Of a stretch of 7,399 nt of DNA, positions 2,428 to 7,399 are shown piece after piece. The DNA is from a bacterium (lineage in GTDB: Bacteria; Coprothermobacterota; Coprothermobacteria; Coprothermobacterales; JAADFF01). The notes below the pieces were generated by a model. It searched no databases and was not told where the DNA came from. It saw nothing but the letters and a program-made list of their open reading frames with translations. Location: assembly GCA_027063755.1 (NCBI GenBank), contig JAMORD010000087.1, positions 1-7,399 of the forward strand, written 5' to 3'. Position 1 is the first letter of the stretch, and the number at the start of each line of letters is the position of its first letter. A program made the translations under genes and the position numbers.

Positions 2428-4008
2428 GTGAAAAGACTCATGAAGGTTATCGTGTTTCTACTGATTATCTCTGTCTTGTTTGGTGGATATGTTTTTTATA
2501 AGGCATATACGCTTTACCAATCCATGCAGACGATAAAGTTTGTATCTGATTTCAATGGAGATCTGACAAAACTTGTATTGTATGCCGTTGAATCAAATAT
2601 TGGTAATGATAAAGATATAAAGCTCTTATACGAGAAAATGTTAACAAAAATCAATCAAGATATAAGTAATCTTGATGTTCCTTTATCGGTAAAAGCCAAT
2701 ATAGATGATATTGTGAGACAAACACAGGACTTAGAAAGATTACTAGGTAATAATACGGCTGATGTAAAAAATATTAATACTAAAGTTGATAAAATTTTAG
2801 AAAGTATACATAACTTAGAATCAAGACTAATCAAGGACACATTATATTCCGTTGGTGGAATGCTTACTTTGGCTATTATTCTTGGAATAGTGCTTTTATT
2901 GGTTGTCTTATACGCTATGTATCTTGTAAAATCTATACTTGATGCGGTTAAAGAACTTGAGAGAATATCTGGAGATATAGAACAAGGTAATCTGAAACTT
3001 GATGCTCAAGTTAAGACTAACAATGAGGTTGGTGAGGCGCTGATCCGCCTTATAAAGGTTATTGATAATAGATTGGTTCCTCTGATAAAGGGGGTTATTG
3101 AAAGTGCAGTTAATCTTGATAGTATGGTAGATAGACTCAATGATTCTTCTGACCACCTTAGTAGTGTTGTTGATGAGTTTAGCCATCAGACCGATCAAGT
3201 ATCCACCCAATCTTCTAACATGCAACAGGCACTGGGTAATGCTCTTGGTGCCGTGTCAGAGGTTCTTGCCGGTACATCTAATGTTGCCAATGCCGCTGTT
3301 TCCCTTTCTGAAGTAGCCTATACACTAGGCAATGTTGTTGAAGAGGGCAAAGAGAGTATGGAGTCACTTGGTAGTGCTATGAACAAAGTTGTTGAAAGCA
3401 CTTCCAGTGCTACAGAGCGTATTAAAGAACTTGAGAAGTGGACAGAGCGTATTAACGAAATAGTCAATACAGTAAGCGATATAGCCGAGCAGACTAACCT
3501 ACTGGCCCTCAACGCAGCCATTGAGGCGGCCCGTGCCGGCGAAGCGGGAAGAGGTTTCGCCGTGGTTGCCGAAGAGATTAGAAAACTGGCAGAGGGTAGT
3601 AGAGATGCCGCCGAGGAGATAGCCGGTGTGCTGAAGACTGTTACGAATAACATTAAGCAGGCTACAACGGATATGGAAAGTGTTAATGAGTCTGTAAAAC
3701 TATCTGAGATGTCCAGAAATACCATGGAAAATGTTCTCAATAAGATTGTTGAAAGCACCATGAAAGTCAGCGAAGGTGCCGAATCACTGGCTGCACTTGC
3801 CGAAGAACAGACCGCCGCAGCCCAGAACATATCCAGTGAACTTGATTCTGTTAAAGAACTTGTTAATTCGTTCACCTCAGCTACAGCCAGCATTGCCAAT
3901 GGTGTAAAGGATATCAGAGTAATCGTTGAAGAGATAGACAACATTGCACAGGAGATAGACCAGCTTTCTGGAGACCTACGTCACAGGGTATCCTTCTTCA
4001 AAGTATAG
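2428..4008 (+). CDS. Methyl-accepting chemotaxis protein (membrane chemoreceptor)
   Basis: 526 residues; senses a ligand outside the inner membrane and controls CheA kinase through CheW. TM1 is at about residues 6-25 ([18 protein letters not shown]). A small helical periplasmic domain (about 30-140) resembles no sensor family I can name. TM2 is at about 145-167 ([20 protein letters not shown]), followed by a divergent HAMP (about 168-215, ending [15 protein letters not shown]). A long cytoplasmic coiled coil then holds the invariant signalling tip at about 353-392 ([33 protein letters not shown]). The return helix contains [13 protein letters not shown]. The C-terminus ends RVSFFKV without a CheR-binding pentapeptide. 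GTG at 2428 is chosen 8 nt after GGAGG (2415-2419); GTG at 2425 or 2419 is possible but closer to or overlapping the ribosome site. It is transcribed alone between two terminators. The sensor half is markedly more AT-rich than the signalling tip. Confidence 0.95.
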
Positions 4009-4035: not shown

Positions 4036-4062
4036 AAAGCCCCTGGCAAGCCAGGGGCTTTT
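4036..4062 (+). terminator. Rho-independent terminator after the chemoreceptor
   Basis: A perfect 11-bp stem, AAAGCCCCTGG (4036-4046) and CCAGGGGCTTT (4051-4061), with tetraloop CAAG, ends in a short T run. It lies 28 bases past the chemoreceptor stop and separates that gene from the polymerase gene. Confidence 0.93.
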
Positions 4063-4143
4063 GCTGTTATCAGGAGCGTTGCAGTATTGTCTGTTATATA
4101 TTTGTCGTGTATGCCTTGTAAAATTATTTATATGTTATATCTG

Positions 4144-4152: not shown

Positions 4153-4185
4153 AACGGTGTGACTGTTGTGAAAGGTGGTGTCAAA

Positions 4186-7100
4186 ATGATTGAACATCTT
4201 AGGCATCTCCGAAAACTTATACTTTCCCAATATCCTATTTTTAACGATGAGTATATGTCCCGCATCGCATCTGAGAAAATAGATTTTTCTTTAGAAGAAA
4301 TAGACAAAGATGTTTATATTGTAAATGGTAAAAAACAAGGACATGTTGTGGCAAGATATATGGTTCCCGCTCAGAGAATAATGCATTGGAAAGGTAAAGA
4401 CTGGGTTTCTCCTTTAATATTTTTACCACATGAAGAGGATTGGAAAAAGAGTAAGGTAGATTATACCCGTGGTATATATGTGCCTGCGTATATGCTAAGT
4501 TTTATAAAGAAAATGTATTTTAGGTTGCTTTCGGATAAGAGTACCGAAGAAATAGATGATGTGTATGTTATTGATCTTATGCCCTCTGTGGGTACGGAGC
4601 GTGTAAAGGTGTATTGGGATGTGCCCTTTGTGTCCACATCATTTCCCGTATGGTATGACATTACCGATGAAAATGCCATATCGCAGATTTCGTATAAAAA
4701 CCTTGTCATATTGCCACTGTTTGCAGAGCACGATGTTCTCTCATATCGTAAATACAGGGCTGTCAATCCTACCCAGAAAGGTATTCTGTGCCCTGTACAC
4801 ACTCCAGAGAGCAAGAAAATGGGTTTTTACCTATATATGGCCCATGGTGCTTCATATGATGAGCAAACATTTTCTATTGTGCCTGCAGAAGATGATGAGA
4901 AGCAGTTTAGCACGGCAGTGCTCCATGTGCCTTATTTTAACTACTCAGATGCCCCTCGTGTTATGATGGGTGCCAAAAATTATAAGCAGGCGGTAAAGGT
5001 TGATGGTGCAGAGGAGCCTGTTATTAGTACAGGTTATGAAACAGAGGCCCTAGGTAAGAATGCCCTTGTTGTATATGGCCTTTACAAAGGATACACCATA
5101 GAAGATGGCATTGTTGTCTCTCGCTCATTTGCTCAGAAGATGAAACACATAGATGTCGTGACGGTTTCTATAGATATTGGAGAGGGTATGTTGAAGACTT
5201 TAAATATCAATGTCAAGGTGGGGGATGTTGTCAAACCGTGGCAGGTGATTGCAGAGTATAGGCAGTTTGACAAGAAGAAAAAGGTGTATTTTCCATCGTT
5301 TGCCCCCGGTAGGCTAAAGGCCATAAGGCAGTTGCCCGATAGAGATTTTTTGCTGGCTTCTGCCTCGCTAAAGCCAGATAGTAAATATCAACTACCTGTG
5401 ACAGTGGTCTTTGAAATAGAGGTTGAAAGACCCCTTCGTGTTGGCGACAAGCTAACAGGTAGGCATGGAAACAAAGGTGTTGTTTCCAAGATTGTAGATG
5501 ACAAAGATATGCCACATGTTTATATTGACGGCAAGTATATACCGGTTGATGTGGTTATGACACCTCTTGGTGTTATATCGCGTAAGAATATTGGTGCCCT
5601 TATAGAGACCTCGTTTTCTGTGACTAAGAAGCATGGCCTGAATGTGAAGATGGGGCCATATGTACAGTTGGAAACAGGAGATATAGAGGCCGTTCGTAAG
5701 AAACTCCAAGATTTGGGGGCTGACAGATATGGCAGGTTTAAAGTATATTTTGGTGGTAAAGAATTTTATGCCCTTGCCGGTTACCAGTATATTTTGAGAC
5801 TTCATCATCACGCAGAGACCAAACTTTCTGTTAGAGGTAAAGATGGCCCTGTCAATATCTTTGGACAGCCTGTCGGTGGTAGGCAAAATAGGGGAGGACA
5901 AAGACTTGGAGAGATGGAGATATGGACGCTAATGTCCCATGGCAAGAAAGATGTCTTTCACTATGTGATGTCTCTGGCAGGTAAAGATAGGGCATGGGAG
6001 ACATATAGATATCTCCTTCTTTTGATGGGAGTATCATTGTCTATAAAAGGTAATAAGGTAACATGGTCAGCTTTGACGACTAAGACGGCATGGAAGAAAC
6101 ATATAAAGCATGTGCGCTCTGTAGATAAGATAGGAGATAAACCGAAGCTGTATCAGGTCAAAGACGAAAAAGGCTACTATATAGCCCGTTATCTGTGGCC
6201 ATATTTCTTCCCTCGTAAGCTTTATGAGAGACGCTCGGGTAAGGCCAAACCTATTATTAACAGCCGTTTTAATATTGTTCCCAAATATGTTCCCAAGGTG
6301 CTTAGCCTATATGGTGGAATGACGGTTGATAAGAAGAAAATGGAAAAGAAAGATGTTTCTTATAGACATCTACCAACCTTAGATGTGGTGATTGGTTATG
6401 CTAAAGCTGAACAGTCTTCTAAATATGGACTGTTTCGCAGATATGTACTTGGTAAACGCTTAAACTGCACCGGGCGTGCTGTTATTGTGCCTGATCCCAC
6501 TCTTGATTTAACGACAATTCGTATACCAAGGGTTATGTATGAAGAGTTTGGTGGTAAAGGTGGAAAACCCATATGGGTACTTCTGGGAAGACAGCCCTCC
6601 CTTCACAAACATAGCATACAGGCATTTAAAGCGGTGCCGTGGGATGAGTATGCTATAGCGGTATCGCCAATGATATGCAGTGGCTTTGGAGCAGATTTTG
6701 ATGGTGATACGATGTGGCTTATACATGTTAGGGATAGTAAAAGGCTGAAAGCCTCTTTAAACGATATGACCCTACTTGCCAATTTCTATCTACTCAGAAA
6801 TGGTGAGCCGGCGGTGCTGTTTGGACATGACTATGCGTGGGGATATTTTCTAGAACATGGTGGTGATATTGCCGAACGAGTAAAGCGATTTATTGTCGGT
6901 GATAGTGCCAATATGCCCCGTGTAGACAGAAATAACATAAGAAAGTTGGAGAAGTCTTATTTCTCAGCTGAGCATTTAGAAAATTCTATAAAAGATCTTC
7001 ACAGGTATTTGGATACTGCCACATACTATCCACCATCGTTTACATTCTTTATGCTTTATGATGCTATTCATGGAGATAAAAATGCTCTGCAGTTTATACT

Positions 7101-7399
7101 ATTGCTACCCCTCAGTGGTGCCCGAGGTGGAGAAGATGCTGTATCTGAGTTGGTTGAAGAAATATCTGTAGATGAGAAAACAGCTGATGCTTTTATGGTG
7201 CCTCAGAGTCTATCTCCATTTGCTAAAGGTCTAACATCTGCGGAAGTATGGGCTGTTGCCTACAGGGGGAGAAACTCTATGATGGATAAGAAGCTGACTG
7301 TTGCCTCTTCTGGTGCCACTACAAGGGAGATGGTCTACAAACTCGCACACTTGAAATGGAAAGACATTAAAGATATTGTAACAGGGTATGTAGGTGATA
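4186..7399 (+). CDS. Single-chain RNA polymerase, beta and beta' fused (C-terminus beyond right edge)
   Basis: 1071 codons without a stop, open at the right edge. A DNA-dependent RNA polymerase with beta and beta' catalytic barrels in one chain. Beta part: NPTQKGILCPVHTPES (194-209, fork-loop/rifampicin region), VPYFNYSDAPRVMMGAK (249-265), GYTIEDGIVVS (302-312), GDKLTGRHGNKGVVS (420-434, with K422 and K430 matching E. coli K1065 and K1073), PLGVISRKNIG (460-470), QPVGGRQNRGGQRLGEMEIW (562-581). Beta' part: KYGLFRRYVLGKR with GRAVIVPDP (746-769), GRQPSLHKHSIQAF (801-814), ADFDGD (D837, D839, D841 binding the catalytic Mg2+), GEPAVLFGHD, SGARGG (977-982), and a bridge helix ending VASSGATTRE. 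About 150 residues joining the halves contain no cysteine, so no beta' zinc ribbon. The trigger loop must lie past the window. ATG at 4186 follows AAAGGTGGTG; an in-frame GTG at 4168 lacks a ribosome site. Much shorter than Helicobacter-type rpoBC fusions. Polymerase identity is firm; sigma use, promoters and origin are unknown. Confidence 0.96.
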   Translation, partial: MIEHLRHLRKLILSQYPIFNDEYMSRIASEKIDFSLEEIDKDVYIVNGKKQGHVVARYMVPAQRIMHWKGKDWVSPLIFLPHEEDWKKSKVDYTRGIYVPAYMLSFIKKMYFRLLSDKSTEEIDDVYVIDLMPSVGTERVKVYWDVPFVSTSFPVWYDITDENAISQISYKNLVILPLFAEHDVLSYRKYRAVNPTQKGILCPVHTPESKKMGFYLYMAHGASYDEQTFSIVPAEDDEKQFSTAVLHVPYFNYSDAPRVMMGAKNYKQAVKVDGAEEPVISTGYETEALGKNALVVYGLYKGYTIEDGIVVSRSFAQKMKHIDVVTVSIDIGEGMLKTLNINVKVGDVVKPWQVIAEYRQFDKKKKVYFPSFAPGRLKAIRQLPDRDFLLASASLKPDSKYQLPVTVVFEIEVERPLRVGDKLTGRHGNKGVVSKIVDDKDMPHVYIDGKYIPVDVVMTPLGVISRKNIGALIETSFSVTKKHGLNVKMGPYVQLETGDIEAVRKKLQDLGADRYGRFKVYFGGKEFYALAGYQYILRLHHHAETKLSVRGKDGPVNIFGQPVGGRQNRGGQRLGEMEIWTLMSHGKKDVFHYVMSLAGKDRAWETYRYLLLLMGVSLSIKGNKVTWSALTTKTAWKKHIKHVRSVDKIGDKPKLYQVKDEKGYYIARYLWPYFFPRKLYERRSGKAKPIINSRFNIVPKYVPKVLSLYGGMTVDKKKMEKKDVSYRHLPTLDVVIGYAKAEQSSKYGLFRRYVLGKRLNCTGRAVIVPDPTLDLTTIRIPRVMYEEFGGKGGKPIWVLLGRQPSLHKHSIQAFKAVPWDEYAIAVSPMICSGFGADFDGDTMWLIHVRDSKRLKASLNDMTLLANFYLLRNGEPAVLFGHDYAWGYFLEHGGDIAERVKRFIVGDSANMPRVDRNNIRKLEKSYFSAEHLENSIKDLHRYLDTATYYPPSFTFFMLYDAIHGDKNALQFILLLPLSGARGGEDAVSELVEEISVDEKTADAFMVPQSLSPFAKGLTSAEVWAVAYRGRNSMMDKKLTVASSGATTREMVYKLAHLKWKDIKDIVTGYVGD

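Follow-up and report, generated by a model that had tools for sequence, protein, structure and literature searches.

Why should a bacterial genome that holds ordinary rpoB and rpoC genes also encode an RNA polymerase whose beta and beta' cores lie in one chain? The question is raised by a 7,399-nucleotide (nt) stretch of DNA (the window), which is the whole of contig C87 (JAMORD010000087.1) in a 1.5 Mb genome of the Coprothermobacterota (G000, GCA_027063755.1; 251 contigs, 88% complete). The last gene of the window encodes a protein, here designated P0001, which a sequence-only reading had described as a compact single-chain two-barrel polymerase, possibly of a distinct lineage with a dedicated transcription role. 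Bacterial transcription is generally ascribed to a single multisubunit polymerase. We tentatively read P0001 as a chromosomal auxiliary DNA-dependent RNA polymerase with fused beta and beta' cores, one of a family that is linked to clustered regularly interspaced short palindromic repeats (CRISPR) and would have its own initiation factors.

Architecture of the single-chain polymerase

The open reading frame (ORF) of P0001 extends from an ATG at 4186 to the contig end, 1071 amino acids (aa) without stop codon or frameshift; an upstream GTG at 4159 is an alternative start. Pfam domains Rpb2_3, Rpb2_6, the start of Rpb2_7 and Rpb1_2 follow one another in a single frame (Table 1), and neither Rpb1_1 (PF04997, the beta' N-terminal clamp domain) nor Rpb2_1 was matched in the Pfam scan. 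The alignment comprised P0001, 12 cellular beta plus beta' pairs, 40 fused chains of viral origin and 13 further single-chain candidates from bacteria. K422, K430, D837, D839 and D841 are invariant across these 66 sequences and fall on the catalytic positions. Domain order and alignment bear out the earlier claims that the core motifs of beta and then beta' stand in order in one frame, that these five residues were correctly named, and that the motifs are close to those of cellular enzymes.

A profile search and a structure prediction, both of which had been proposed, gave RpoB/RpoC-type domains in order and an AlphaFold model (30 sequences) with a predicted template modelling score (pTM) of 0.76, a predicted bridge helix and a predicted local distance difference test (pLDDT) mostly of 85-97 in the core. 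Residues ~60-607 resemble Rpb2/beta chains in structure comparison (Z 24-27 over ~440 residues); the match list was taken up by the beta part and speaks for that part only. Against bacterial beta, phmmer gives 138 bits with 36-41% identity over ~200 aa, which sets P0001 apart from the YonO-like or RNA interference-type single-chain clade. A chance origin of the polymerase signature is excluded. The contig ends 18 residues past the bridge helix; hence the trigger loop lies outside the view, and "compact" has to be read from a lower bound of 1071 aa. The full-length protein is probably ~1300 aa long.

A separate housekeeping polymerase

The sequence-only reading had advised a check for ordinary rpoB and rpoC genes. 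Both are present on contig C97 of the window genome, rpoC with 1934 aa and rpoB as a 3' part of 411 aa. P0001 is therefore not the sole housekeeping enzyme of this genome and, given also the absent PF04997 domain, it is ruled out as a housekeeping RNA polymerase. No continuation of the P0001 gene was found on other contigs, its last 42 bases being unique in the genome, and PF04998 was detected in this genome only in rpoC. The rpoC product is unusually long (1934-2041 aa) in the genus of the window and in a genome of the same order (L040 1246-7050, L235, L266); in the other family of the phylum it has ~1250 aa.

Relatives in the Thermotogota

A scan of bacterial genomes for GADFDGDTM yielded eleven loci. 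Closest to P0001 is the 1287 aa polymerase on the complete chromosome of Athalassotoga saccharophila (E 4e-102), followed by those of two Thermotogae metagenome-assembled genomes (MAGs; E 1e-86 and 1e-84), a partial Kosmotogaceae copy and then Candidatus Ozemobacter. Full-length Thermotogota single chains measure 1287-1426 aa, and nine Thermotogota relatives carry a trigger loop (GERGTQLSMK; GERGTQLSMKTFQT-like) and the beta' C-terminal cysteine motif. In the Thermotogota genomes checked, ordinary rpoB and rpoC stand alongside the single-chain polymerase. A profile of the nine Thermotogota polymerases scored 467 bits against the incomplete P0001 (E 3.5e-140); the best chains outside the family, viral L118 (373 bits) and Ozemobacter (369 bits), are both longer sequences than P0001.

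In a maximum-likelihood tree of 614 columns, P0001 groups with the Thermotogota chains (support 91), and these together group with Ozemobacter (support 72). Approximately unbiased (AU) tests, among which one constrained search was not run to completion, rejected both the constraint that puts P0001 within the main viral clade (p 0.0002) and the one that puts it with the cellular enzymes (p 1e-25). The tree of two-barrel polymerases that had been called for thus sets P0001 with the Thermotogota single chains, apart from both viral clade and cellular enzymes, and the suggestion of a distinct lineage stands, P0001 being of no YonO, crAss or plasmid type. P0001 very likely belongs to the Thermotogota-type bacterial family or to its sister group.

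A Lentisphaerae MAG encodes two differing, odd single-chain polymerases (L223 2407-6492, 1361 aa; L224 5122-10053, 1643 aa). It also holds a further rpoB/rpoC pair, and an integrase-like gene lies on L223.

Reduction of sigma-contact regions

From the beta C-terminal motif to the beta' LGKR motif, 185 residues are found in P0001 and 109-136 in the Thermotogota chains; in cellular enzymes the beta' part alone has 304-862 residues before LGKR. It is in this N-terminal part of beta' that the clamp coiled coil lies, to which sigma region 2 binds. The flap span (GYTIED to GDKLTG) is 118 aa in P0001 versus 152-274 in cellular beta, with 149-172 residues in the Thermotogota members, and the flap-tip helix was not seen in the AlphaFold model of P0001. 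Because the beta' N-terminal clamp is absent and the flap shortened, use of sigma70 by P0001 appears unlikely, as judged from motif spacing and the predicted model.

A conserved operon with p300 and an AAA+ protein

In the Thermotogota loci the polymerase gene is followed by genes for a ~300 aa protein (p300) and a ~470 aa AAA+ protein; in the four loci measured, both polymerase and p300 genes and p300 and AAA+ genes overlap. p300 matched no Pfam family. The AAA+ partner matches Sigma54_activat (E 2e-34). Read by sequence, it has Walker A and B motifs and, in most members, a GAFTGA-like loop (GAFTGA, GSFTGS, GAFTDA, GSWTGS); a C-terminal helix-turn-helix (DNA-binding domain) was not seen in the family. 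A p300 profile search of 103 Thermotogota genomes found the protein in nine, all of which (9/9) have polymerase, p300 and AAA+ in that order. Five of the nine operons had not come up with the polymerase query and count as independent of it, since they were reached through p300. The operon occurs in different genera, on chromosomal contigs that are either complete or long. A family AAA+ gene also adjoins both Ozemobacter polymerases (E 4e-46 and 7e-47), and the p300 profile found no match in 386 genomes outside the Thermotogota. The sequence-only reading had proposed a dedicated transcription role without content; the conserved operon of the relatives, with its sigma54-type AAA+ ATPase and the CRISPR genes described below, now suggests what that role would be.

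In two Thermotogota (L258 12601-13885, L260 12347-13631), inspection by eye showed two genes directly upstream of the operon, one macro-domain-like and one possibly DarT-like.

CRISPR linkage of the family

CRISPR genes or arrays are adjacent in 7/7 Thermotogota loci with enough flanking sequence (Athalassotoga, G099, G101, G122, G125, G127 and G131; the contigs of G100 and G134 are too short). In Athalassotoga the operon is directly followed by Cmr1, Cas10, Cmr3, Cmr4, Cmr6, CARF proteins and a CARF_CYTH_HD protein (PADLOC). The G101 locus has CARF_CYTH_HD (E 3e-107) and a Cas_APE2256 protein, and G122 has CARF_CYTH_HD (E 1e-156). Cas6b is the fourth gene in G125 and G127. By inspection of sequence, G099 holds the same kind of Cmr/Cas10 plus CARF_CYTH_HD set (Cas_APE2256) with an array of 17 repeats, Cas6b is the fourth gene in G131 too and its 3' part is present in G101, and apparent type I cas genes lie ~5-10 kb away in G127 and G131, both of which have long arrays. 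Near the polymerase of Ozemobacter sibiricus, an array lies 1 kb away and Cas1 is present (E 2e-76); the second Ozemobacter locus showed no CRISPR features in 20 kb. Linkage in 7 of 9 loci has a p of 3e-6 under an assumed background of 10%, a value to which G101/G125 and G127/G131 contribute as close pairs.

The window genome itself has type III-B genes, on C103 (Cas10 3' part, Cmr genes, a CARF-HD protein) and on C125 (Cas10). In a polymerase-free genome of the same genus (G001), no Cas10 was found above the cut-off; this co-occurrence of polymerase and type III-B genes covers one genome pair only. A PF22335 match on C100, considered as Cas10, is a GGDEF-type protein instead. For the single-chain family as a whole, we regard a role in CRISPR or defence as evenly poised.

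The single-chain two-barrel build, seen beside RNA-targeting type III systems, Cas6 and CARF proteins, would also suit an enzyme that copies RNA templates. Much like the two-barrel enzymes at work in eukaryotic RNA interference, it would amplify CRISPR RNA (crRNA) or the target RNA of CRISPR and so feed type III signalling. However, the motifs match cellular DNA-dependent enzymes and not QDE-1 or YonO, and an AAA+ partner of sigma54 type is easier to reconcile with promoter opening on DNA; we consider RNA templating improbable.

Comparison with known polymerases

Single-chain two-barrel polymerases are already known (PMC10770324, PMC7281927), and a published survey recognises fused double-psi-barrel derivatives inside the multisubunit clade (PMC10770324). 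YonO, crAss gp66, P23-45 gp64 and QDE-1 are like P0001 in having both double-psi barrels in one chain. Their clade has few residues in common with cellular enzymes, and YonO is without trigger-loop homology (PMC5467207, PMC10770324), whereas P0001 keeps extended conservation of both beta and beta'. With cellular rpoB/rpoC, including natural beta-beta' fusions, P0001 shares active site, fork and bridge helix, and its relatives also share the trigger loop and the beta' C-terminal cysteine motif; in contrast to these enzymes, the single-chain polymerase is about half the size, lacks the beta' N-terminal clamp domain, has a reduced flap and coexists with an ordinary rpoBC.

The sequence-only reading had described known single-chain relatives as much more divergent in these motifs. 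As stated, this is not supported, since cellular-like single chains are common in viruses: among 120 stretches of IMG/VR with ADFDGDTM, most carry the motifs of both beta and beta' in one ORF, typically of 2000-2200 aa, and many of these fused chains have NADFDGDTM and near-cellular motifs. The mReC Caudovirales polymerase and the IMG/VR chains resemble P0001 in their multisubunit-clade motifs, and many viral chains are one polypeptide with ADFDGDTM; mReC itself was delimited by beta and beta' profiles that matched separately. Unlike P0001, the IMG/VR fused chains are mostly 2000-2200 aa, mostly have NADFDGD rather than GADFDGD, lie on viral contigs and fall in a separate clade (AU). A peptide-pattern search of IMG/VR confirmed no close relative of P0001, and the pattern with a trailing W found none.

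Fused beta-beta' ORFs of ~1450-2500 aa with ADFDGDTM occur on diverse viral contigs (IMG/VR L041-L160), and a compact viral subgroup (L042, L047, L086, L143; 1450-1510 aa) forms its own clade. Matches of tblastn to phages and plasmids were split rpoB/rpoC, and much of this resembled host sequence filed under phage or plasmid entries that lack annotation. Salmonella phage Arash (L164 6093-10670) and Vibrio phage D69 (L165 6099-10682) encode chains of ~1525 aa with both barrels. Arash gp206 was rejected as a relative: it holds both barrels (GNKG, ADYDGD) in one chain and ends ~90 residues after DYDGD. As the Arash and D69 chains both stop ~90 residues past ADYDGD, their remaining beta' must be elsewhere.

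One sentence in Altae-Tran et al. 2023 (PMC10910872) lists UAS-58, "two-component RNAPol + CARF", among CARF-type modules near type III CRISPR loci. The sentence itself gives no architecture, taxa, AAA+/p300 partner or function; it may refer to the polymerase-p300-AAA+ module. It was the only mention of a CRISPR-dedicated polymerase found in the literature, and the text of the 2025 CRISPR classification is without the term "RNA polymerase". P0001 is of a known kind, that of single-chain or fused polymerases of the multisubunit clade; for the operon, the AAA+ partner, the domain losses and a Coprothermobacterota-type member, no description was found in the open literature searched.

Chromosomal setting of the window gene

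The polymerase gene is preceded by genes for FapA, a prefoldin and a chemotaxis receptor (MCP). These lie in the same order in G001, nt identity being 83% over 2.3 kb that hold FapA and prefoldin and falling to 74% within the receptor. In G001, from which the polymerase is absent, a different gene follows the receptor; synteny stops at the MCP gene, where the polymerase gene begins. GC content and codon usage of the polymerase gene are similar to those of host genes. The gene setting reads as chromosomal, and the upstream synteny upholds the earlier claim of a chromosome-like setting.

Table 1. Features of the polymerase gene and its upstream region in the window.
Feature	Position	Strand	Basis
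Strong intrinsic terminator after the MCP gene, parting it from the polymerase gene; AAAGCCCCTGGCAAGCCAGGGGCTTT	4036-4063	+	sequence
Shine-Dalgarno-like AAAGGTGGT, 6 nt before ATG 4186	4171-4179	+	sequence
Single-chain two-barrel RNA polymerase gene (P0001), 3' end cut by contig end, at least 1071 aa	4186-7398	+	ORF, Pfam, alignment, AlphaFold
Beta fork region, Rpb2_3 (Rpb2 domain 3), residues 163-221	4672-4848	+	Pfam E 9e-7
Shortened flap, residues ~302-419	5089-5442	+	AlphaFold model, motif spacing GYTIED to GDKLTG
Beta double-psi barrel, Rpb2_6 (Rpb2 domain 6), residues 405-567	5398-5886	+	Pfam E 5e-36
Active-site lysines K422 and K430, within beta double-psi barrel	5449-5451, 5473-5475	+	alignment
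Start of Rpb2_7 (Rpb2 domain 7), GGQRLGEMEIWTL, residues 570-591	5893-5958	+	E 1e-4, below Pfam cut-off
Beta' double-psi barrel, Rpb1_2 (Rpb1 domain 2), residues 798-861	6577-6768	+	Pfam E 9e-18
Catalytic DFDGD, residues 837-841, within beta' double-psi barrel	6694-6708	+	alignment
Bridge helix (predicted), residues 1018-1053	7237-7344	+	AlphaFold helix; family profile aligns to residue 1052

The end of synteny just before the polymerase gene, in a metagenome-type assembly of 251 contigs, is what an assembly chimera or binning error would leave, in which a host contig had acquired a piece of some foreign polymerase. Yet the contig is continuous, with a normal terminator and Shine-Dalgarno sequence and host-like composition, the upstream genes keep their order at 74-83% identity in G001, and the relatives are chromosomal too; such an artefact is very improbable.

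The same break in synteny, the absence of the polymerase from G001, the patchy spread in Thermotogota (9/103) and the many fused beta-beta' chains on viral contigs would agree with an enzyme that an integrated virus, a plasmid or another mobile element uses to transcribe its own genes, the nearness to CRISPR in relatives reflecting shared defence and mobile islands. However, no viral hallmark genes were noticed beside the nine Thermotogota polymerases, whose operon recurs across genera on chromosomal contigs, complete or long. The AU test also rejects the viral-clade grouping, GC and codon usage are host-like, and three IMG/VR matches to the family-like motif CxGFGADFDGD score far under the bacterial family. 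We therefore hold a mobile-element origin to be rather unlikely.

Two observations concern the neighbours. The prefoldin subunit (1552-2079, + strand; Pfam E 2e-16) is of archaeal type in a bacterial genome and, among nine genomes of the phylum, is limited to the genus of the window. The MCP signalling segment (3469-3595) is repeated at 74-88% identity in ~10 other contigs, a large receptor family.

Proposed role and implications

Several results weigh against P0001 being an auxiliary polymerase of the CRISPR-linked family. Its branch is long (~1 substitution/site), its grouping with Ozemobacter was not rejected (AU p 0.19), and its first ~150 residues did not match the family profile significantly (E 0.08); a family-specific N-terminal domain was accordingly dropped as a shared character. 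The long branch and the unmatched N-terminus make P0001 a divergent relative. No CRISPR genes lie within 4 kb upstream of the polymerase in the window, its neighbours being FapA, prefoldin and MCP genes instead, and the contig ends inside the polymerase gene. The rest of the window genome, 88% complete, yielded neither p300 nor the family AAA+; there a profile search (C-terminus, p300, AAA+) gave above noise only rpoC and an NtrC-type regulator. The predicted structure of p300 is poor (pLDDT 43) and unfit for structure search. A regulator on C47, considered as the family AAA+, is an ordinary NtrC-type regulator.

If P0001 is active and has the same partners as its relatives, transcription by an auxiliary polymerase might proceed as follows. 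With the sigma70-binding parts lost (beta' N-terminal clamp coiled coil, flap tip), p300 could act as the promoter or initiation factor of the polymerase. The AAA+ ring, which keeps a GAFTGA-like loop and has no DNA-binding domain, would remodel the polymerase-p300 complex and so start transcription, working like the sigma54 system without being a member of it. Candidate targets are CRISPR arrays or cas/CARF genes, favoured because cas6 lies in the operon of several members. With such targets, immunity might be expressed while a phage inhibits the host polymerase, or on a cyclic-oligoadenylate signal. We consider this specific p300/AAA+ initiation model doubtful.

Similarly speculative is a complete second bacterial transcription system (one-chain polymerase, initiation factor and sigma54-type AAA+ opener) dedicated to CRISPR immunity, of which the window would hold a divergent member outside the Thermotogota. 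If true, a defence system would carry its own transcription machinery. Transcription of immunity genes during phage shutdown of the host polymerase, and two-barrel initiation without sigma70 contacts, would then be open to test. A minimal polymerase of ~1300 aa with bridge helix and trigger loop may also serve as a model for finding which parts of the multisubunit enzymes are needed for regulation only.

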